Of a stretch of 61,514 nt of DNA, positions 2,100 to 10,894 are shown in pieces. Below the pieces are notes generated by a model that was not told where the DNA came from, did not search any database, and saw nothing but the letters and a program-made list of their open reading frames with translations. This stretch comes from Myxococcota bacterium. Lineage in GTDB: Bacteria > Myxococcota_A > UBA796 > CAJQPC01. The DNA lies in NCBI GenBank assembly GCA_023150845.1, contig JAKLKD010000010.1, positions 1 through 61,514 on the forward strand, given 5' to 3'. Made by a program: the position numbers and the translations under genes. Every line of letters begins with the position of its first letter. Within the stretch, counting starts at the first letter, position 1.

Positions 2100-3620
2100 A
2101 TGCCCCTCGTCAACGCTGGTCTGCCCTCCCCGCTGCGCTCGATTCACATCATGGGCATCTGCGGCACCGCCATGGGCGCCGTCGCCGGGATGCTCAAGGA
2201 CGCTGGGTATGAGGTCAGCGGCTCGGACGGCGCGGTCTACCCGCCGATGAGCGACTACCTCGCGAGCCTGGGCATCCCCGTGATGTCGGGCTACGTCGCC
2301 AAGAACCTCGACCACAAGCCCGACCTCGTCGTCGTCGGCAACGCCATCCGCGCGGTGTACGAGGAGGCCGAGGCCGTCGTCGCCCGGGACCTGAGCTACT
2401 GCTCCTTCCCCCACCTGCTCGGCGAGCTCTTCCTCAAAGATCAGAAGAGCGTCGTCGTCGCGGGCACCCACGGCAAGACCACGACGACGGCGGTGACGGC
2501 CTGGCTCCTCGACCAGGCCGGGATGGCCCCGGGTTACCTCATCGGCGGTGTGGTGCGGGGCTGGGAGCGCACGGCCCGGGCGGGTGAGGGCCTCTACTTC
2601 GTCATCGAGGGGGACGAGTACGACACGGCCTTCTTCGACAAGCAGCCAAAGTTTGTGCATTACCGGGCCAAGGTCACCATCCTCACCTCGGTGGAGTTTG
2701 ACCACGCCGACATCTACCGCGACCTCGCCCACGTCCAGGAGAGCTTCAAGCGCCTCATCGCCGGGATGCCCGCCGATGGCCGGGTCATCGCCCGCTGGGA
2801 CCACGCCACGGTGCGAGAGGTCTGCCAAGGTGCGCCCTGCGCCATCGTGAAGTACGGCCCCGGCCAGGACTGGGACGGCCGCATCGACGGCGTCGACCAC
2901 GACCGGGGCGTGATGCGGTTCTCGGTGCTGCACGACGGCGTCGTCGTCGGGCGCTTTGAGAGCGTGCTCGTCGGTGAGCACAACCTCTACAACCAGGTCG
3001 CCGTCATCGCCGCCTTGCTCGGCGAGGGCGTCTCCGCCGAGGTCTTGGCCAAGGGGCTCAAGACCTTTGAGGGCGTGAAGCGCCGCCAAGAGGTGCTCGG
3101 CGAGCCCGGCGGCGTCACCGTGCTCGACGACTTCGCCCACCACCCCACCGCCGTGAAGGTCACCACCGCCGCCCTGCGCCTGCGCTTCGGCGGGCGCCGC
3201 CTCTGGGTGGTCTTTGAGCCGCGCTCCAACACCTCCCGGCGCAAGGTCTTCCAAAAGGAGTACGGTGAGGCCTTCGACGACGCCGACCAGATCATCATCG
3301 CCGACACCGCCCCGGACACCCGCCTCGCCCCGGAGGAGCGCTTCTCGCCGGGCCAGCTCGCCGCCGACCTGCGCGCCCGCGGCCTGGAGGCCACCTGCCT
3401 CGCCGAGGTAGACGACATCGTGGCCACCCTCGCCGCGAACGTGAACGAGGCCGACGTGGTGGCGGTGTACTCCAACGGCGGCTTCGGCGGCCTGCACAAG
3501 AAGCTGCTCAAGGCCCTGGAGGAGCGCTTCGCCGAGGCCGCCCGGGCGGACGCCAAGGCTGAGGCGAAGGCCGAGGCCAAGGCTGAAGCCCGCGCCGAAG
3601 CCCGAGCCGAGAAGAAGTGA
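2100..3620 (+). CDS. mpl: UDP-N-acetylmuramate:L-alanyl-gamma-D-glutamyl-meso-diaminopimelate ligase
   Basis: Mpl is the murein-recycling Mur ligase that attaches recovered tripeptide to UDP-MurNAc in the cytoplasm, using ATP. The N-terminal Rossmann part starts at IHIMGICGTAMGAVAGMLKD (about residue 17). The P-loop GTHGKTTTTA is near 122, and EGDEYDTAFFDK (about 169) and DDFAHHPTA (about 343) are typical Mpl motifs. At 506 residues it is about 50 longer than the usual 450. The excess is a C-terminal Ala/Glu/Lys/Arg run from about residue 478 built of short KAEA and RAEA units, which is not part of the Mur fold. GGAG precedes the ATG at a good distance. The stop overlaps the start of the aminotransferase gene. 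Confidence 0.95.
   Translation: MPLVNAGLPSPLRSIHIMGICGTAMGAVAGMLKDAGYEVSGSDGAVYPPMSDYLASLGIPVMSGYVAKNLDHKPDLVVVGNAIRAVYEEAEAVVARDLSYCSFPHLLGELFLKDQKSVVVAGTHGKTTTTAVTAWLLDQAGMAPGYLIGGVVRGWERTARAGEGLYFVIEGDEYDTAFFDKQPKFVHYRAKVTILTSVEFDHADIYRDLAHVQESFKRLIAGMPADGRVIARWDHATVREVCQGAPCAIVKYGPGQDWDGRIDGVDHDRGVMRFSVLHDGVVVGRFESVLVGEHNLYNQVAVIAALLGEGVSAEVLAKGLKTFEGVKRRQEVLGEPGGVTVLDDFAHHPTAVKVTTAALRLRFGGRRLWVVFEPRSNTSRRKVFQKEYGEAFDDADQIIIADTAPDTRLAPEERFSPGQLAADLRARGLEATCLAEVDDIVATLAANVNEADVVAVYSNGGFGGLHKKLLKALEERFAEAARADAKAEAKAEAKAEARAEARAEKK
3541..3617 (+). repeat. Low-complexity KAEA/RAEA repeat at the 3' end of mpl
   Basis: A run of roughly six-base units of the type gccaag/gctgag encodes an alternating Ala-Lys/Arg-Ala-Glu tail. 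It is an imperfect repeat inside the coding frame, predicted to form a charged helix after the last Mur-ligase domain. The unit structure would allow length variation by slippage. Confidence 0.7.
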
Positions 3621-4876
3621 TGATGGACGGCACCAGCGGGCCCAGCCTGCGCACGGAGATCCCCGGCCCGGCCTCCCGGGGCTGGATCGACCGCCTCGCG
3701 CTGCGGGAGTGCCCGGCGATCACCTCGCGCCGCGCCCGCCGCGCCGCGGCCTTGGGTGTGGCCGATGACGACCCCATCGTCTGGGACGAGGCTCTGGGCG
3801 CCAACGTGCTCGACGTCGACGGCAACGTCTTCGTCGACCTCACCGCGGGCTTCGGCGTGGCGTCCGTCGGCCACCGAAACCCCGCCGTCGTCGCCGCGGG
3901 CCAGGCCCAGCTCGGTCGGCTCCCCCACGCCATGGGCGACGCCTTCCCCGACCCCCAGCGGGTGCGGCTCCTGGAGGCCCTCGCCGAGCGCACGGGCCTC
4001 GACCACGGCATCTTGGGCAGCTCCGGCAGCGACGCCGTCGAGGCCGCGCTCAAGACCGCGCGCTTGGCCTCGGGTCGGGACGGCGTGCTCGCCTTTGAGG
4101 GCGGCTACCACGGCCTCTCCTACGGGGCCCTCGCGACGAGCCACTACAAACACCACGACTTCCGGGGGCCCTTCGTCGGCCAGCTCGGCGAGCACGTCCG
4201 CTGGGCGCCCTTCGGCGGGGAGATCCCGGCCTTAGACGGCGTCGGCGCGGTGCTCGTCGAGCCGATTCAGGGCCGGGGCGGCGTACGTTCGCCCCCGCCG
4301 GGCTGGCTCAAGCGGCTCCGGGAGGCCTGTGATCAAGCCGGGGCCGCCTTGATCTTCGACGAGATCTACACCGGCTTCGGGCGCACGGGCCTCATGTTCG
4401 CCCACCAGCGTGAGGATGTGCGCCCAGACCTGCTCTGCGTCGGCAAGAGCCTCGCCGGCGGCTTCCCCATCTCGGCCTGTATGGGCAGCCGGGCGGTGAT
4501 GGAGGCCTGGGGCGCGTCCAAGGGTGAGGCCCTGCACACCCAGACCTTCTTGGGCAACCCCGTGGGCGCGGCGATGGCCTTGGCGGCGCTGCGGTTCATC
4601 GACGAGGCGGGCCTCGTGGAGCGGGCCGCCGGGGTAGGCGCCTGGCTCAAGGAGCGCCTGTCCGCCTTCGGCCCGGTGCGCGGCGAGGGCCTCATGGTCG
4701 GCCTGGAGGCGCCGGATCCCCTCGCCTTGAGCCGGGCCTTGCTCCAGCGCGGCTACATCATCCTGCCCGCGGGCCTGCGCGGCGAGGTCCTGGCGTTCAC
4801 GCCGCCTTTGGTGATCACCGAGGCCCAGCTCGACGGCGTCGTGGCGGAGCTACACGCCCTGCTGGGGCGACCGTGA
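3620..4876 (+). CDS. Class III PLP-dependent aminotransferase
   Basis: A 418-residue fold-type I enzyme of the class III group (GABA, ornithine, diamine and omega-amine transaminases). The N-terminal glycine-rich FVDLTAGFGVASVGHRNPAV, the cofactor loop SSGSDAVEAALKTAR, FDEIYTGFGRTG with the PLP-nitrogen Asp, and LCVGKSLAGG with the Schiff-base lysine at about 276 are all present, so it should be active. The start is ambiguous: GTG 3617, ATG 3620 or ATG 3623 are consecutive, and the chosen ATG overlaps the mpl stop as TGATG behind GAGAAG. It is coupled downstream by a GTGA overlap to the LuxE-like gene. Next to an acid-activating enzyme and a reductase that yields aldehydes, the simplest reading is that it aminates the aldehyde; the substrate is inferred only. 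Confidence 0.92.
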   Translation: MMDGTSGPSLRTEIPGPASRGWIDRLALRECPAITSRRARRAAALGVADDDPIVWDEALGANVLDVDGNVFVDLTAGFGVASVGHRNPAVVAAGQAQLGRLPHAMGDAFPDPQRVRLLEALAERTGLDHGILGSSGSDAVEAALKTARLASGRDGVLAFEGGYHGLSYGALATSHYKHHDFRGPFVGQLGEHVRWAPFGGEIPALDGVGAVLVEPIQGRGGVRSPPPGWLKRLREACDQAGAALIFDEIYTGFGRTGLMFAHQREDVRPDLLCVGKSLAGGFPISACMGSRAVMEAWGASKGEALHTQTFLGNPVGAAMALAALRFIDEAGLVERAAGVGAWLKERLSAFGPVRGEGLMVGLEAPDPLALSRALLQRGYIILPAGLRGEVLAFTPPLVITEAQLDGVVAELHALLGRP

Positions 4877-5850
4877 AGGCCGAGACCCTGAGCCTCTTGC
4901 GCCGCGGCGCGCCGGAGGCCGAGCGTTGGCCTCACGCCCGCCGCCTCTTTGAGCACCAGCGCGCCTTGTGCCCGGACTACGCGGCCTTCGTCGGCGACGC
5001 CGACCCGCAGAGCTTCGCGGCGCTGCCCGCCGCGCCGGTCGGCCTCTTTCGTGACCTTCGGTTCTGCGTTACCGCGGAGTCCGGGGTGATCTTCCGCACG
5101 AGCGGCACCACCTCGGGCCAGCGCGGGGCGCACCACCTGCCCGACGCCGAGGCCGTCGAGCTCGCCTCACGCCTGCACTTCGACGCCATGCTCCCGGGCT
5201 GCCCGACGGGCAACACCCTCTCGTTTGTCACCGACGCCGCCGCGCACCCCGACTCGTCGCTCGGCCACATGATCCGCCACCTCGCCCCCGGGGCGCGGAC
5301 CTTCTTTCACCCCGGCGCCGGGGTTGACGCCGAGGCGGGCTGGGCCGCCCTACGCGCCGTGAGCGCCCCGGTGTTTGTGCCCGCCACGGCCTTCGCTTTG
5401 GCCGACCTCCTCGACCATCCCGGCGACGCCAAGCTGCCTCCAGGCTCGGTGGTGATGGTGACCGGCGGGTTTAAGGGCCGCCGCACCCAGCTTGACGAGG
5501 CCGGGCTCTGGGCCGAGGCCCAGGGGCGGCTCGGGCCGGGCGCGCGGCTGGTCGGCGAGTACGGCATGACTGAGCTCTCCTCCCAGCTCTGGGACGTCGG
5601 CGAGGGCTACGTCGCCCCGCCCTGGCTCATCGTGCTCGTCGTGGCCCCCGACACCGGCGCGCCCCTGCCCGACGGCGCGCTGGGCCTGCTGCGCTTCGTG
5701 GACCTCGCGAGCTGGGGGAGCTGCGTCGCCATTGAGACCCAAGACCTCGGCGTGCTCCAAGGCGGCCGCCTGCGCCTGCGGGGCCGGGTGACCGACGCCC
5801 CCGCACGAGGCTGCTCCTTGACCGCTGAAGAGGCGATGGCCCTCCGATGA
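4873..5850 (+). CDS. LuxE-like acyl-protein synthetase
   Basis: A 325-residue member of the LuxE / acyl-protein synthetase family (PF04443), relatives of the adenylate-forming enzymes. LuxE activates a carboxylic acid with ATP and passes the acyl group to LuxC. Visible motifs are SGTTSGQRG at 77-85, the phosphate-binding loop, and GEYGMTELSSQ at about 228-238, the counterpart of the YGxTE adenylate motif. MVTGGFKGRR at about 193 is also characteristic. Translation starts at GTG, overlapping the aminotransferase stop by four bases (GTGA). The stop overlaps the LuxC-like start by four bases (ATGA). No luxA, luxB or luxD gene is present, so a role in light emission is not supported. Confidence 0.88.
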   Translation: MKAETLSLLRRGAPEAERWPHARRLFEHQRALCPDYAAFVGDADPQSFAALPAAPVGLFRDLRFCVTAESGVIFRTSGTTSGQRGAHHLPDAEAVELASRLHFDAMLPGCPTGNTLSFVTDAAAHPDSSLGHMIRHLAPGARTFFHPGAGVDAEAGWAALRAVSAPVFVPATAFALADLLDHPGDAKLPPGSVVMVTGGFKGRRTQLDEAGLWAEAQGRLGPGARLVGEYGMTELSSQLWDVGEGYVAPPWLIVLVVAPDTGAPLPDGALGLLRFVDLASWGSCVAIETQDLGVLQGGRLRLRGRVTDAPARGCSLTAEEAMALR

Positions 5851-6890
5851 CCCCACGCCGCCCGCCGAGCCTCGAGGCCGAGGCCCGCGCCGCCGTCACC
5901 CGCTTCGGGGCGATGGACCCCACCTCCTGGGGCACGGGGCTCTCCGCCGAGGGCGCACGGGAGGCCTTGCGCCTGAGCGTCGACGCCGTGCTCACCGGCC
6001 GCTTCGGGGAGCCCCCCGGCGAGCCTCCGGCGCGGCTGCTCATCTGGTGCGCCGCGAACGTGTTCACCGCGCCCCTGGAGTGGACGGCGCGCTTCTCGGC
6101 TTGGGGCAGCCAGGTCACCCTGAAGGCGCCCACGGCCTGCCCGGCGCCTGTCGAGGCCTTGGCCGCCGCGTTTAAGCCCCTGGGCGTCGTCGCCGTGAAC
6201 AAAGCCCACGAGGATGCCTGGGACCTCGTCGCCGAGGCCGACGCCGTGCTCGGCTTCGGCGGGGACGAGGCGATGACGGCGCTCCAGGCCAAGCTCCCCC
6301 CGGCCACGCCCCGCTCGCTCCACGGGCACCGCCTGAGCCTCGCCGTGGTCGCCGGGGACGACGCCGCGACGGCCAAGGCCCTTGCCTTGGACCTCGCGCT
6401 CTACGACGGCCAAGGCTGCATGTCCCCCGCCGCCATCTTCTGCCTCGGCGACGCCGTCCGCCTCGGGGAGCGCCTCGGCGACGCCCTCTACGAGCTCTCC
6501 GGCCGCCTGCCCCGGGGTGAGGCGACGCCGGGGCTCGGCCCGGAGCGCCGCCGCCGCATCGGCCTCGCCCGCGCCTTGGGCCAGGTCTGGGAGGGCGAGG
6601 ACTGGCTCGTCACCGTCACCCCCGCCCGAACCTTCAGCCCCCTGAGCCACGCCCGCCTCGCCGCGGTGCACCCGCTCCCCAGCCTAGACGCCTTGGCGGA
6701 GCTGCCACGCCTGCCCTGGTCTACCCTCGGCACGGATCTGCGCGACGACGAGGCCGCCCGGGTCGCCGAGGCCCTGGGTGTCCCCCGGGTGTGTCGCCTG
6801 GGCCAGATGCAGCGTCCACGCTTTGGCCGCCCCCACGACGGCGTGAACGTCGAGGCCACGCTCTGCCGGAGCCGCGCGTGGGAGCTCTGA
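5847..6890 (+). CDS. LuxC-like acyl reductase
   Basis: A 347-residue protein of the LuxC acyl-CoA reductase family (PF05893), an aldehyde-dehydrogenase-like enzyme that reduces a protein-bound acyl thioester to an aldehyde with NADPH. The active-site context DGQGCMSPAAIF puts the nucleophile at Cys191, matching the QxC-SP pattern of LuxC. The segment GFGGDEAMTAL (about 135) resembles the nucleotide-binding loop. It is shorter than Vibrio LuxC (about 480 residues), mostly at the N-terminus, as in many non-luminous homologues. It is translationally coupled to the LuxE-like gene and overlaps the dipeptidase start by 13 bases. With LuxE it should form a carboxylate-to-aldehyde reductase. Confidence 0.85.
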   Translation: MTPRRPPSLEAEARAAVTRFGAMDPTSWGTGLSAEGAREALRLSVDAVLTGRFGEPPGEPPARLLIWCAANVFTAPLEWTARFSAWGSQVTLKAPTACPAPVEALAAAFKPLGVVAVNKAHEDAWDLVAEADAVLGFGGDEAMTALQAKLPPATPRSLHGHRLSLAVVAGDDAATAKALALDLALYDGQGCMSPAAIFCLGDAVRLGERLGDALYELSGRLPRGEATPGLGPERRRRIGLARALGQVWEGEDWLVTVTPARTFSPLSHARLAAVHPLPSLDALAELPRLPWSTLGTDLRDDEAARVAEALGVPRVCRLGQMQRPRFGRPHDGVNVEATLCRSRAWEL

Positions 6891-7912
6891 TCCCCGCATT
6901 GGCCGGGCGCGTGTCGGCCGAGGCCCAGGCCGTGCACGAGGCCGCGCTCATCGTCGATCTGCACTGCGACCTCTTGTTGACCTCGGGGCTCTTGGGCTGG
7001 GACTGGGGCCGCCAGCACCGCGAGAACCCCCTGCCCTTCGCGCCGCTCTTTGGGCACTGCGACCTCCCGCGCCTGCGCCTCGGCAACGTCGGCTGCTTGG
7101 GCCTGGGTGTGGTCACGAACCCCTTCGCCGGTCCTTGGCGTGAGGCCCACGGCGACCTCATCTTCCGCCGCCTCGGCGAGAAGCTAACGCGCCACTCCAC
7201 GGAGCTGCGCCTCGCCACCACCGCCCAAGGCATCCGCACCGCCCGGCGCGACGGCCGCATCGCCTGCTTCGCGGGCTTAGAGGGCGCCCACGCCTTGGCG
7301 GGCCGTCTCGACGCCTTGCCCCGCTGGCAAGACCAGGGCCTCACCTACGTCGGCCTCGCGCACTTCACCCAGAACGAGGCCGTGCGACCGATGGTCGGGC
7401 TTGGCGCCTGCGCCACCACACCCCTCACCGACTACGGCCGGGAGCTCGTGCGTGAGCTCGACCGCCGCCGCATCCTCGTAGACGTCGCCCACCTCAACCG
7501 CGCCGGGGTCGAGGAGGTCTGCCGCGGGTCGACCACGCCGAGGATCTGCTCGCATACGGCCTGCACCGCCGTCCACCCCTCCCCGCGGGGAATCGACGAC
7601 GCCCAGATCCGGCTCATCGCTGAGACCGGCGGGGTGATCGGCGTGATCTTTGTCACCCCCTTCATCGGCCCCGGCGGCGCGGCCCAGGTCGCCCGGCACA
7701 TGGACCACATCAAGCGCCTCGTCGGCGTGCAGCACTGCGCGCTCGGCTCGGACTGGGAGGGCTTCGCGGTCTACCCGGACGACCTGCGCAGCGCCGACCG
7801 CCTCCCGCTGCTCACCCAAGCCCTGCTGGACCTCGGCTGGACGGCGGACGAGGTGCACATGGCCTATGGCGAGAGCTTCTTGCGGGTGCTCAACGAGGTC
7901 CGCGGGGGTTGA
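6878..7912 (+). CDS. Membrane dipeptidase, peptidase family M19
   Basis: A 344-residue amidohydrolase-fold zinc enzyme of family M19 (renal-dipeptidase-like). VDLHCDLL near the N-terminus gives the HxD metal ligands. EGAHAL (about 132) supplies the bridging Glu, SHTACTAVHPSPRGIDD (about 224-240) the later His ligands and the Arg-Asp pair, and GSDWEG (about 292) the final Asp. No signal peptide is evident, so it is probably cytoplasmic. The GTG at 6878 was chosen because GGAG lies six bases upstream and because it places the start inside the end of the LuxC-like gene, matching the overlaps before it. M19 enzymes can cleave dipeptides with a D-residue or unusual amide bonds. In this operon it may release or recycle an amine-linked product, which is inference. 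Confidence 0.9.
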   Translation: MGALIPALAGRVSAEAQAVHEAALIVDLHCDLLLTSGLLGWDWGRQHRENPLPFAPLFGHCDLPRLRLGNVGCLGLGVVTNPFAGPWREAHGDLIFRRLGEKLTRHSTELRLATTAQGIRTARRDGRIACFAGLEGAHALAGRLDALPRWQDQGLTYVGLAHFTQNEAVRPMVGLGACATTPLTDYGRELVRELDRRRILVDVAHLNRAGVEEVCRGSTTPRICSHTACTAVHPSPRGIDDAQIRLIAETGGVIGVIFVTPFIGPGGAAQVARHMDHIKRLVGVQHCALGSDWEGFAVYPDDLRSADRLPLLTQALLDLGWTADEVHMAYGESFLRVLNEVRGG

Positions 7913-7954: not shown

Positions 7955-8566
7955 TCAGGGGTTGGCGGGGAGGTCGCGGCTGAGGCGCGCCCGAGCCCGG
8001 GCGAGGTCGCGGCTGATCTGCGCGGGGTGAAGGCCAAACTCCCGGGCGATGTCGCGGCCCGTGCGGCCCTCGATGAACGCGCGCAGCACCTTGGCCGGGC
8101 GATCGGCGTGCTGGCCGAGGTAGGTGTCGATGGCCTGGGTGACGCCGCTCTTGCGGGCGCCGACGCCGCCCATGGCCGCCTCGGGGCCATCGGCGTGCTC
8201 AAGTGACCAGGCCGACATGCAGCGCGAAGCGCCAGGATCTTGGCCGAAGCTCGGCAGCTCACTCGCCCGGCGGCGGGCCCGACGGCGGCGGCGCTTGGCC
8301 TCGGCGCTGCGCGCGGCCCAGGCGGCCTGAACGACGAGGTAGGTGCGCAGGCTGCCGCGCTCCGGGTCCCAGCGCTCCAGAAGCTCCGGGAGCTTGGCCC
8401 AGAACTCTTGCAAGAACTCTTCGACCTCGGAGCTGCAGAACCCGCCCAAGCTGCGCGTCATGCTGCGCCGGACGGCCTCCGCGTGAAGGTGGTAAATCAC
8501 CTCAAAGCTGCGGCTCGTGCGCAGCGTGAGGTAGCTCTTAACCAGCTCGCGGTCGACGGTGGACAT
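7955..8566 (-). CDS. Small sigma-70 family RNA polymerase sigma factor (ECF-like)
   Basis: A 203-residue two-domain sigma factor. Residues about 45-95 (EVEEFLQEFWAKLPELLERW then GSLRTYLVVQAAWAARS) look like region 2, which binds the -10 element and core polymerase. Residues about 160-195 (FIEGRTGRDIAREFGLHPAQ) are a region 4 helix-turn-helix for the -35 element. A very basic linker (KRRRRRARRRA) joins them. Regions 1 and 3 are absent, as in ECF sigma factors, but no anti-sigma gene lies next to it. The ATG follows GGGAGG at seven bases. It lies 122 bases downstream of another sigma gene, behind that gene's terminator, and has its own good promoter. The target regulon cannot be read from this sequence. 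Confidence 0.82.
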   Translation of the reverse strand: MSTVDRELVKSYLTLRTSRSFEVIYHLHAEAVRRSMTRSLGGFCSSEVEEFLQEFWAKLPELLERWDPERGSLRTYLVVQAAWAARSAEAKRRRRRARRRASELPSFGQDPGASRCMSAWSLEHADGPEAAMGGVGARKSGVTQAIDTYLGQHADRPAKVLRAFIEGRTGRDIAREFGLHPAQISRDLARARARLSRDLPANP

Positions 8567-8588
8567 CTGTGCCTCCCTGAACGGGGTG

Positions 8589-8600
8589 TGTACAGACTAT
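8589..8600. repeat. TGTACAGAC(T/G)AT direct repeat, copy 1
   Basis: This 12-base element recurs at 8664 with one mismatch, at opposite ends of the hairpin between the two sigma genes. Its core TGTACA is palindromic, and it overlaps the expected transcription start of the small sigma gene, so it could be an operator. Confidence 0.45.
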
Positions 8601-8624
8601 ACGCAACGTCACCGGAAATAGCAA
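8596..8624 (-). promoter_or_regulatory. Predicted sigma-70 promoter of the small sigma gene
   Basis: On the minus strand TTGCTA (8624-8619) and TATAGT (8601-8596) are separated by 17 bases, a near-consensus housekeeping promoter. The start would fall near 8589, about 22 bases before the ATG. The -35 box abuts the terminator hairpin of the upstream sigma gene. Confidence 0.65.
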
Positions 8625-8657
8625 GCCCCCAATGTACAAACCCGTACATTGGGGGCT
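8624..8657 (-). terminator. Perfect 14-bp hairpin, terminator of the RpoD-family gene
   Basis: Two perfect 14-base arms (AGCCCCCAATGTAC and its complement) flank the six-base loop AAACCC. On the minus strand it stands 32 bases after the stop of the RpoD-family gene and is followed by TTGCTATTT. That is only moderately U-rich, so efficiency is uncertain. The arm ends contain GTAC, echoing the TGTACA repeats on both sides. Confidence 0.7.
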
Positions 8658-8663
8658 AAAGCC

Positions 8664-8675
8664 TGTACAGACGAT
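8664..8675. repeat. TGTACAGAC(T/G)AT direct repeat, copy 2
   Basis: Second copy of the element at 8589, with G in place of T at position 10. It lies between the RpoD-family stop codon and its terminator hairpin. Confidence 0.4.
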
Positions 8676-8688
8676 CGCCTGAAGCCGC

Positions 8689-9750
8689 CTAGGCGACCGG
8701 CGGCGGCGCCTTGAGCAGCCCCGCGAGGTTGAAGTCGCGGATGCCGGAGTGGTCACGGAGGCGGATCAGGGCCTCACGCTCGATCTGCCGCACCCGCTCG
8801 CGGGAGAGGCCCATCTCTTTGCCGACCTCGGACAAGGTGCGGAACTCGCCGTCGTCCAGGCCGTAACGCCGGGTGAGCACGAAGCGCTGGCGATCGGAGA
8901 GCACCGAGGCGAAGGCCGTGTGCATCCGGTTGAGCTCTTGGCCCTGGATGGCGTCGCCGTCGGGCTGGGGCGCGTCCTCATCGCTGAGGAACCGCTCCAA
9001 GGGCCGGGGGCGCGGGCCGTCATCGACGGGCTGCTCCAAGGAGATGGTGTTGCCCTGGCTCAGCAGCAGCTCCGCCCGCTCCTTGTCGATGCCCACCTCG
9101 TCGGCGAGGTCGTTGATGTTGTACTCGATCCCGCCGGCCTCGAAGCGCTTCATCGCCTTGCGGAGGTTGCGGGTCTGCTCGACGGCGCAGCCGGGCAGGC
9201 GCACGGGGCGGCCGGTGTGGTCGATGGCGCGGGTCATCTGGGCGCGCACCCACCAACGGGCGTAGGTGGAGAAGCGGATGCCGCGGTCGGGGTCAAACCG
9301 TTTGGCCGCGCGCAAGAGCCCGATGTAGCCCTCCTGAACGAGGTCCTCCTCGTCCATGAAGGGCCCCGCGAGCTTACGAGCCTCGCCGTGGGCGATGCGG
9401 CGACCGGACATCGCGAGGCGCCAGCGGAGGTTCTCCGCCTCCTGCCACGCCGCCGACGCGGTGCGGGCGCGCTGCTTGAGCTCCGGCTGGAGCTTCGCCT
9501 CACGCACGACGGACATCACCGCCTCCTCAAGGCGGCTCACCGCGCCTGCGCGCGTACGTTCGGCCCGCTCAGGGCGGCGACCGACGATGGCCTGGGCGGC
9601 CGGAACCTCGCGGATCGCCTCTCTGGCAGCCTCCTCTGCCCGACGAATGCGCCGGGCCATGTCCTTCTCTTCTTCAGCCGTGAGCCGCTCGCTGCGGCCA
9701 GAACGCTCTGAAGAGGAAGACATCCCGAAGCTGGCACGGGAAAGGGCCAT
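8689..9750 (-). CDS. RpoD/RpoS-type (group 2/3) sigma-70 factor
   Basis: A 353-residue member of the RpoD superfamily. LTAEEEKDMARRIRRAE (about 23-39) resembles region 1.2, followed by a roughly 60-residue Ala/Arg/Glu-rich spacer. DEEDLVQEGYIGLLRAAKRF and IRFSTYARWWVRAQMTRAI (about 132-177) are regions 2.1-2.4 with the WW of the -10 melting element. A region 3 helix (NINDLADEVGI) follows, and LTRRYGLDDGEFRTLSEVGK with LSRERVRQIEREAL (about 300-335) is region 4.2. Region 1.1 and the large non-conserved insert of primary sigma factors are missing, so it is an alternative sigma rather than the main RpoD. GAGGAG lies seven bases before the ATG. A palindromic GTGTACAC lies just upstream at 9767-9774. 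Confidence 0.93.
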   Translation of the reverse strand: MALSRASFGMSSSSERSGRSERLTAEEEKDMARRIRRAEEAAREAIREVPAAQAIVGRRPERAERTRAGAVSRLEEAVMSVVREAKLQPELKQRARTASAAWQEAENLRWRLAMSGRRIAHGEARKLAGPFMDEEDLVQEGYIGLLRAAKRFDPDRGIRFSTYARWWVRAQMTRAIDHTGRPVRLPGCAVEQTRNLRKAMKRFEAGGIEYNINDLADEVGIDKERAELLLSQGNTISLEQPVDDGPRPRPLERFLSDEDAPQPDGDAIQGQELNRMHTAFASVLSDRQRFVLTRRYGLDDGEFRTLSEVGKEMGLSRERVRQIEREALIRLRDHSGIRDFNLAGLLKAPPPVA

Positions 9751-9910
9751 GGAATCTCCTCAACTTGTGTACACGATGCTTGGTGGGCGCCCGCTGCCCG
9801 GCTGGTGAGAGCTGCGCGCCACGACTGGTGAAGCGCCAGCAGAAAGAGATAGTCTACTGGCATTCGGATGAAGATGAAAGACGTGAACGCGAATCCGCAG
9901 AATTCCGCGT

Positions 9911-10894
9911 TTATCCCAGAGAATGGAGCCCGATCGCCTCGCGAACCCGGCCCAATGTGCTCCTGGCGACGGCGCGAGCACGTCGCGCGCCGTCAATGAG
10001 AATGTCCTCTACCTCGTCGGGCTTCGCCGCGAGGAGCTCATATCGTGCGCGAGGGGCCTCCATCGCACGATCCATCACCTCAAAGAGCGCCTGCTTGGCG
10101 TGGCCGTACCCGAAGCCGGGCTCGACGTAACGCGCCGCCAACGCCGCCTGCTCGTCCGCGGAGGCGAAGAGCTTGTAGAGGGCGAAGACGTTGCAGGTGC
10201 TTGGGTCTTTGGGCTCGTCGAGGCCCTTGGAGTCCGTGACGATCTGCATGATCCGCTTGCGCAGCGCCTTGGGGGGCGCGAACAGCTCGACGGTGTTGCC
10301 GTAAGACTTGGACATCTTTCGACCGTCGAGCCCAGGCACCGTCGCCACCTCCTCACGGATGAGCGGCTCGGGCACACGGAAGATCTCGCGGCCGACGTGG
10401 TGGTTCATCGACAGGGCCATGTCCCTCGCCATCTCGACGTGCTGCTTCTGATCTTTGCCGACCGGCACGAGGTCGCTGTCGTAGAGGAGGATGTCGGCGG
10501 CCATCAACACGGGGTACGCCAGGGTGCCGAGGTTTATCTCACGACCAGCGTCACGAGCGGCCTTCACGGCGTGGGCGCGGTCGAGCACGCCCATGTTGAC
10601 GAAGCAGCCAAGGATCCAGGCCAGCTCGGTGACCTCGGGCACGTCCTCCTGGCGAAAGAGCGCGGCGCGGGCGGGGTCGAGGCCGAAGGCCAACCAGGTC
10701 AGGGCGGCCTCACGCTGGTTCTTACGCACCAGCTCGGCGTCGTGGGTCGTGGTCAGCGCGTGGAAGGACGCGATGAAGTAGAACGGCTCCGTCGAGTCCT
10801 GAAGCTGGATGGCGGGCTCAATCATGCCTTTGAGGTTCCCGACGTGGGGAACACCCGAGGGCTGGATGCCAGTGAGGGCGCGCTTGGGAGGCAT
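9911..10894 (-). CDS. trpS: Tryptophanyl-tRNA synthetase
   Basis: A class I aminoacyl-tRNA synthetase of 327 residues that charges tRNA-Trp. TGIQPSGVPHVGNLKG at 8-23 contains the HIGH-type ATP site in its usual TrpRS form (PSGxxHxGN). GRKMSKSYGN at about 192-201 is the intact KMSKS loop. LMAADILLYDSDLVPVGKDQ (about 129-148) is the tryptophan pocket and dimer segment typical of bacterial TrpRS. Length is normal. It is divergent from the lipoprotein gene at 10994, separated by 99 bases. No tryptophan leader or T-box is visible. Confidence 0.97.
   Translation of the reverse strand: MPPKRALTGIQPSGVPHVGNLKGMIEPAIQLQDSTEPFYFIASFHALTTTHDAELVRKNQREAALTWLAFGLDPARAALFRQEDVPEVTELAWILGCFVNMGVLDRAHAVKAARDAGREINLGTLAYPVLMAADILLYDSDLVPVGKDQKQHVEMARDMALSMNHHVGREIFRVPEPLIREEVATVPGLDGRKMSKSYGNTVELFAPPKALRKRIMQIVTDSKGLDEPKDPSTCNVFALYKLFASADEQAALAARYVEPGFGYGHAKQALFEVMDRAMEAPRARYELLAAKPDEVEDILIDGARRARAVARSTLGRVREAIGLHSLG

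Follow-up and report, generated by a model that had tools for sequence, protein, structure and literature searches.

Three adjacent genes of a Myxococcota bacterium, which encode a class III aminotransferase (AT3), a LuxE-like acyl-protein synthetase, and a LuxC-like acyl-thioester reductase, seem to work together. Judging from comparisons of sequences across genomes, AT3, LuxE, and LuxC are a conserved functional module, and the M19 dipeptidase gene that follows them is a lineage-specific neighbor. The three enzymes probably make up a dedicated pathway that would start from a carboxylic acid and yield a primary amine. A first-pass annotation of this DNA had suggested an acid-to-amine pathway with the dipeptidase as one of its parts. 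LuxE, LuxC, and AT3 did turn out to be a conserved and co-inherited set, and the pathway is our leading, well-supported hypothesis, but we would leave the dipeptidase out of it.

All four genes are on the plus strand of the window, by which we mean the whole stretch of 61,514 nucleotides that was analyzed. As first annotated, they are intact open reading frames with overlapping starts and stops. AT3 begins at 3617 or 3620 and ends at 4876, LuxE is at 4873..5850, LuxC is at 5847..6890, and the M19 membrane-type dipeptidase is at about 6875..7912. The AT3 and LuxE genes share GTGA, the LuxE and LuxC genes share ATGA, and the LuxC and M19 genes overlap by 16 bases. Also, the start of AT3 overlaps the stop of the gene for Mpl (UDP-MurNAc:tripeptide ligase; 2100..3620, plus strand; 422 bits for TIGR01081, which has a cutoff of 388.7). 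Directly 5' of mpl, at 760-2072, a gene for a GT2 glycosyltransferase is followed by an overlapping gene for a TIGR04282-like DUF2064 protein, and several families of the window's taxonomic order show synteny for the arrangement GT2, DUF2064, Mpl. Beyond the dipeptidase, two sigma factors, the first of which is of the ECF type, and TrpS are encoded consecutively on the minus strand (7955-10894). In many relatives, the sigma factors and TrpS adjoin the LuxC end of the trio and are syntenic.

The assignments of family and the catalytic residues that were noted from the sequence alone held up for all four proteins. For LuxE, the Pfam family is of limited help: PF04443 gives 21.1 bits, which is below its gathering cutoff of 24.9, and it matches just 11 of 28 LuxE relatives at E <= 0.001, while the general AMP-binding family matches 16 of the 28. 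Nevertheless, the SGTTSG loop is present, and a profile that we built from the 28 relatives (A1) matches nearly the full length of Photobacterium LuxE (7xc6_E, E = 3.7e-21). Cys314, which is encoded at 5812..5814 (plus strand), is the putative acyl-acceptor site based on alignment and conservation: it is invariant in the 28 relatives, and it aligns with Cys364 of Photobacterium LuxE, which we take to be the acylated cysteine. The predicted structure of LuxE (pLDDT 89) has a PaaK-like adenylating fold of the ANL type, and 7xc6 chain E was absent from the 50 structural matches listed for this model. The window's LuxE is 48 residues shorter than the LuxE of bioluminescent bacteria, and it is the only LuxE homologue in the genome.

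LuxC is more easily recognized, with 79.7 bits for PF05893 (cutoff 21). The family profile for LuxC (A2) matches Photobacterium LuxC (7xc6_A, E = 1.4e-18), and the same chain is the best structural match to the predicted model (TM 0.80), which has an aldehyde dehydrogenase fold. Cys191 (codon at 6417..6419, plus strand), the likely site of the acyl thioester by alignment and conservation, aligns with the active cysteine of Photobacterium LuxC and is invariant in 31 relatives. The protein is 130 residues shorter than the LuxC of bioluminescent bacteria. The window's genome has one strong LuxC, and a LuxC homologue was found in 51 of 58 genomes in a set of relatives, including all 27 of the genomes of good quality. 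As for the dipeptidase, it scores 221 bits for PF01244 (cutoff 26), its metal-ligand motifs can be recognized by inspection, and it is an ordinary relative of the renal-type dipeptidases.

AT3 belongs to a distinct clade of class III aminotransferases, which we call R-type. It scores 289 bits for PF00202 and falls below the curated cutoffs of the named NCBIfam models that were shown. The lysine that binds PLP is in place; it is Lys277 if counted from the start at 3617, as are all of the AT3 residue numbers given here (L167, R220, D248, K277, and A393), or Lys276, as first annotated, if counted from 3620. Every R-type sequence that we sampled has both K277 and D248. The closest solved structures are acetylornithine, GABA, and putrescine aminotransferases, and AT3 has its fold, its PLP lysine, and its general sequence in common with these enzymes. 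Unlike them, it has an arginine in place of the Glu-switch residue (QGRGG instead of QGEGG; Arg220, codon at 4274..4276, plus strand) and it lacks both of the carboxylate-binding arginines. One of these is replaced by Leu167 (4115..4117, plus strand), where ArgD and GABA transaminases have arginine, and the usual position of the other is taken by Ala393 (4793..4795, plus strand). So AT3 does not have the features of the ArgD or GABA transaminase type at any of the three positions. In the GABA aminotransferase of E. coli, the equivalent residues are presumably Glu211, Arg141, and Arg398, which we understand to bind and gate the carboxylates of substrates.

The same signature is found throughout the clade. 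R220, which defines the group, is present in 84 of 84 R-type AT3s and is invariant in all 30 AT3s from the window's order, whereas glutamate is found at this position in 54 of the 78 class III aminotransferases that we compared from outside of the group (a sample from about 45 genomes, which is not exhaustive). At position 167, in the YHGR motif, the 84 R-type sequences have 77 leucines, 2 valines, and 5 gaps, and 47 of the 78 others have arginine. At position 393, in the xRxxPPL motif, arginine is found in 0 of 84 R-type sequences as opposed to 59 of the 78 others. In a tree of 105 sequences, computed with a quick method, the R-type AT3s form one clade with an SH-aLRT value of 100 and a single change of label.

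We also asked if AT3 could be a standard aminotransferase that is missing from the genome. Ornithine, GABA, acetylornithine, and glutamate-semialdehyde aminotransferases of class III (OAT, GABA-T, ArgD, and HemL) are all encoded elsewhere in the window's genome, so AT3 does not fill any of these gaps. BioA was not identified among the enzymes that we classified in this genome, a set that leaves aside two AT3 fragments (L080 and L081).

That the three proteins work together is supported by the linkage of their genes in several phyla; a search for conserved co-occurrence was the check that the first-pass annotation had proposed. With the LuxE profile, we found matches in 304 of 379 Myxococcota genomes; for Verrucomicrobiota, the number was 14 of 195 (8 of these 14 are full-length). 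In the named collection, the profile has matches in Polyangiaceae, Omnitrophota, Eremiobacterota, Sumerlaeota, Verrucomicrobiota, and Gemmatimonadota. Among 80 named LuxE loci, AT3 is within 3 kb of LuxE in 65, LuxC is in 58, and both are in 50. Within the window's order, linkage by itself is weak evidence, because the whole segment, from GT2 and DUF2064 through Mpl, AT3, LuxE, LuxC, and sometimes M19 to the sigma factor and TrpS, is broadly syntenic there. Across the 80 loci, however, the other neighbors of LuxE are mostly unrelated housekeeping genes, and the order of the genes varies (it is LuxE-LuxC-AT3 in Eremiobacterota). Because the linkage recurs with otherwise different neighbors, we argue that the trio is a functional unit, and because the arrangement is conserved in several phyla, it is far beyond what would arise by chance. 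The pairwise distances of AT3, LuxE, and LuxC are also correlated (Spearman 0.79-0.84), which shared descent alone may explain.

Two other types of loci should be mentioned. LuxE and LuxC are in one continuous open frame, probably as a natural fusion, at 3 of the 80 loci (L084, L104, and L152); the genomes of L084 and L104 are high in GC, and long frames may be open by chance in such genomes. And in several genomes that belong to the same family (G009, G013, G025, G028, G037, and G050), LuxC no longer accompanies AT3-LuxE and instead occupies another conserved neighborhood (L043, L049, L059, L062, L065, and L068).

R-type AT3 is often found together with LuxE even if the genes are not linked. 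Of 14 genomes with LuxE but without AT3 beside it, 9 have an R-type AT3 elsewhere. Among the hits that we checked, it was not seen in the other 5. Two of these are small assemblies, and the remaining three, all of them Sumerlaeota, indicate that the pairing of AT3 with LuxE is not universal. We then predicted that the pairing would hold in further Verrucomicrobiota, and it did: 7 of 7 LuxE-positive genomes have R-type AT3, as opposed to 0 of 9 LuxE-negative genomes. Five of the seven are complete; the other two are fragments at contig edges in which R220 cannot be read, and we counted them on the basis of the N-terminal motif and the absence of arginine at 393. In one of these genomes (G398), the AT3 fragment is directly upstream of LuxE. 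Similarly, no R-type AT3 was found among the sequences examined from 14 of 15 Myxococcota with no LuxE or a weak LuxE; the exception (G298) has an R-type AT3 and a weak match to LuxE (E = 2.1e-7) in a fragmented assembly. Altogether, R-type AT3 is present in 16 of 21 LuxE-positive genomes and in 0 of 23 LuxE-negative or weak-LuxE genomes (9 Verrucomicrobiota and 14 Myxococcota, leaving out G298; Fisher's exact test, p = 5e-8, with genomes that are related by descent and with the signature read in the best hits per genome).

The surroundings of the unlinked genes in Verrucomicrobiota gave us no clue about function: the neighbors have housekeeping roles that are unrelated (pyruvate dehydrogenase, glgA, rsmA, infA, a queD-like gene, and hisI). 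For example, three Verrucomicrobiota with single-contig genomes of 2.2-2.5 Mb encode LuxE (G436, G466, and G546; L290, L291, L302, and L303), and their R-type AT3 is unlinked and is near a pyruvate dehydrogenase operon; in G436, LuxC adjoins LuxE. A genome of the same group (G394; L195 and L211) has two R-type copies, one of which is divergent from LuxE, and the other is unlinked. In two of the Sumerlaeota loci (L125:8875-11224 and L156:8875-11227), LuxE overlaps a gene for a class I aminotransferase of the PRK09257 family, and the third (L141) has no such neighbor.

The M19 dipeptidase and Mpl are local operon neighbors, and Mpl is one only within the window's order. M19 adjoins LuxC in about 10 of 40 loci of this order, Mpl is syntenic in 17 of the 41 loci that we clustered, and neither is beside the trio in Polyangiaceae, Omnitrophota, Eremiobacterota, or Verrucomicrobiota. 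We therefore rejected M19, which is conserved in some families only, as a core member of the pathway, and we rejected a link to Mpl and peptidoglycan as the general function, as this fails outside of the window's order. The first-pass annotation had taken the dipeptidase as a hint that the substrate or product contains an amide or peptide bond. Because M19 is not conserved beside the trio and is absent from it in distant clades, this suggestion has no basis. Its statement that luxAB are absent agrees with our search for the luciferase family (PF00296), which found no match above the cutoff in the window's genome. A search for LuxD found no match in this genome, but it found none in the control genomes either.

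How might the pathway work? Proteins of the LuxE family form an acyl-AMP and then an acyl-cysteine, LuxC proteins take the acyl group on a cysteine and reduce it to an aldehyde, and class III aminotransferases can convert an aldehyde to an amine with an amino acid as the donor. So LuxE would adenylate the acid with ATP and transfer the acyl group to Cys314; the acyl group would pass to Cys191 of LuxC and be reduced with NAD(P)H; and R-type AT3 would aminate the resulting aldehyde. Arg220 might hold the carboxylate of the amino-acid donor. With both of the carboxylate arginines of class III aminotransferases missing, a dicarboxylate or an amino-acid semialdehyde is a less likely acceptor than an aldehyde that is neutral or hydrophobic, for example a fatty aldehyde. 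The comparisons establish the homology, the intact catalytic residues, the linkage, the co-inheritance, and the signature of AT3; the order in which the steps occur, the way in which they run, and the identities of the donor, substrate, and product are our inferences. A more specific proposal is that most Myxococcota, and scattered members of several other phyla, have a core pathway that has not been described before, in which LuxE-LuxC and a dedicated family of aminotransferases produce a primary amine that is long-chain or hydrophobic in some other way (a lipid or its precursor). We offer this only tentatively, as a serious possibility rather than as our expectation.

Alternatively, the module might make a small amine from a metabolite such as GABA, beta-alanine, a dicarboxylic acid, or glutamate, in which case the product would be a precursor of polyamines or amino acids instead of being lipid-like. 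The nearest solved structures to AT3 act on acetylornithine, GABA, and putrescine, the near-universal presence of a single copy in the window's order fits with primary metabolism, and LuxE is an adenylate-forming enzyme that might accept such acids. On the other hand, R-type AT3s lack both of the arginines that would bind a carboxylate, their extra arginine would be unfavorable for cationic diamines, and the genome already encodes class III enzymes that act on ornithine, GABA, acetylornithine, and glutamate semialdehyde. We consider a small amine to be somewhat unlikely. Linkage and co-occurrence carry no information about direction, and the route might also run in reverse, with AT3 oxidizing an amine to an aldehyde that LuxC and LuxE convert to an acyl thioester or an acid. 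LuxC does have an aldehyde dehydrogenase fold, and catabolic enzymes are common among class III aminotransferases. But LuxE has the acyl-Cys site of acyl-protein synthetases, which consume ATP, and this would be superfluous for breaking down amines; also, it would be unusual for one catabolic pathway to be nearly universal in a phylum. We doubt that the pathway is catabolic.

The other explanations take the neighborhood of the trio more literally. If the four genes and mpl were an operon for peptidoglycan recycling, then the trio would act on an acid derived from muropeptides and M19 would act on a dipeptide. This would account for the overlap of mpl with AT3 in the window, for Mpl adjoining AT3 in several families, and for M19 being 3' of LuxC in some families, but we find it highly improbable given that the trio occurs without Mpl or M19 in Polyangiaceae, Omnitrophota, Eremiobacterota, and Verrucomicrobiota. 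Or, LuxE and LuxC might make an aldehyde for another use, with AT3 as an unrelated neighbor that is kept by shared descent of the region. Because the region from Mpl to TrpS is syntenic in the window's order, part of the linkage is indeed inherited. But the linkage recurs in other phyla with other neighbors and other gene orders, and R-type AT3 tracks LuxE even when it is unlinked, so it is very unlikely that AT3 is a bystander.

If our preferred reading, a dedicated route from an acid to an amine, is correct, then it points to a widespread and unnamed metabolic step in major but little-studied phyla, and it predicts that an amine is the product. It would also place the fatty acid reductase of Lux systems within a wider family, as a single branch, with a transaminase instead of luciferase as the partner in the rest of that family, and it would provide a new set of enzymes for converting acids to amines. 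For annotation, the three-residue signature should be useful for recognizing the R-type clade of aminotransferases.

Among known systems, the fatty acid reductase of luxCDABE is homologous for both LuxE and LuxC, and both of the acyl cysteines are conserved. The window's set differs in that the genome has no luciferase above the cutoff, LuxE is weak in Pfam, and the partner is an aminotransferase. Outside of bioluminescence, LuxE and LuxC have been reported from flagellin-glycosylation islands of enterobacteria (PMC4875605), where they are accompanied by acyl carrier proteins, FabG, and sugar genes, and a link to R-type AT3 was not reported. In the literature that we searched, these islands were the only related description, and we found no paper on the set of LuxE, LuxC, and aminotransferase. 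In the trio, we see a real and conserved variant of the Lux acid reductase that seems not to have been described before and that is coupled to its own family of aminotransferases. The first-pass annotation knew of no system with this exact set, and as far as the trio goes our search agrees, but a cascade from a fatty acid to a fatty amine is known with other enzymes. In the biosynthesis of tambjamine, TamA activates a C12 acid; its reduction and transamination are both carried out by TamH, which uses L-glutamate and accepts C7-C14 aldehydes (PMC9594044). PigE is analogous in the biosynthesis of prodigiosin (PMC8341465). These systems share with our proposal the activation as a thioester, the reduction to an aldehyde, and the transamination by a class III enzyme to give a primary amine (PMC9594044, PMC8341465). 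Because this logic is already known from TamA/TamH and PigE, the trio is not categorically new. In TamA-TamH and PigE, though, an acyl-ACP reductase-type enzyme is fused to the transaminase, and the genes are part of antibiotic clusters, while the window's set has separate genes, a LuxC-type reductase, a transaminase from a distinct clade, and a phylum-wide presence. The new parts are the combination of enzymes, the clade of aminotransferases, and the phylogenetic breadth.
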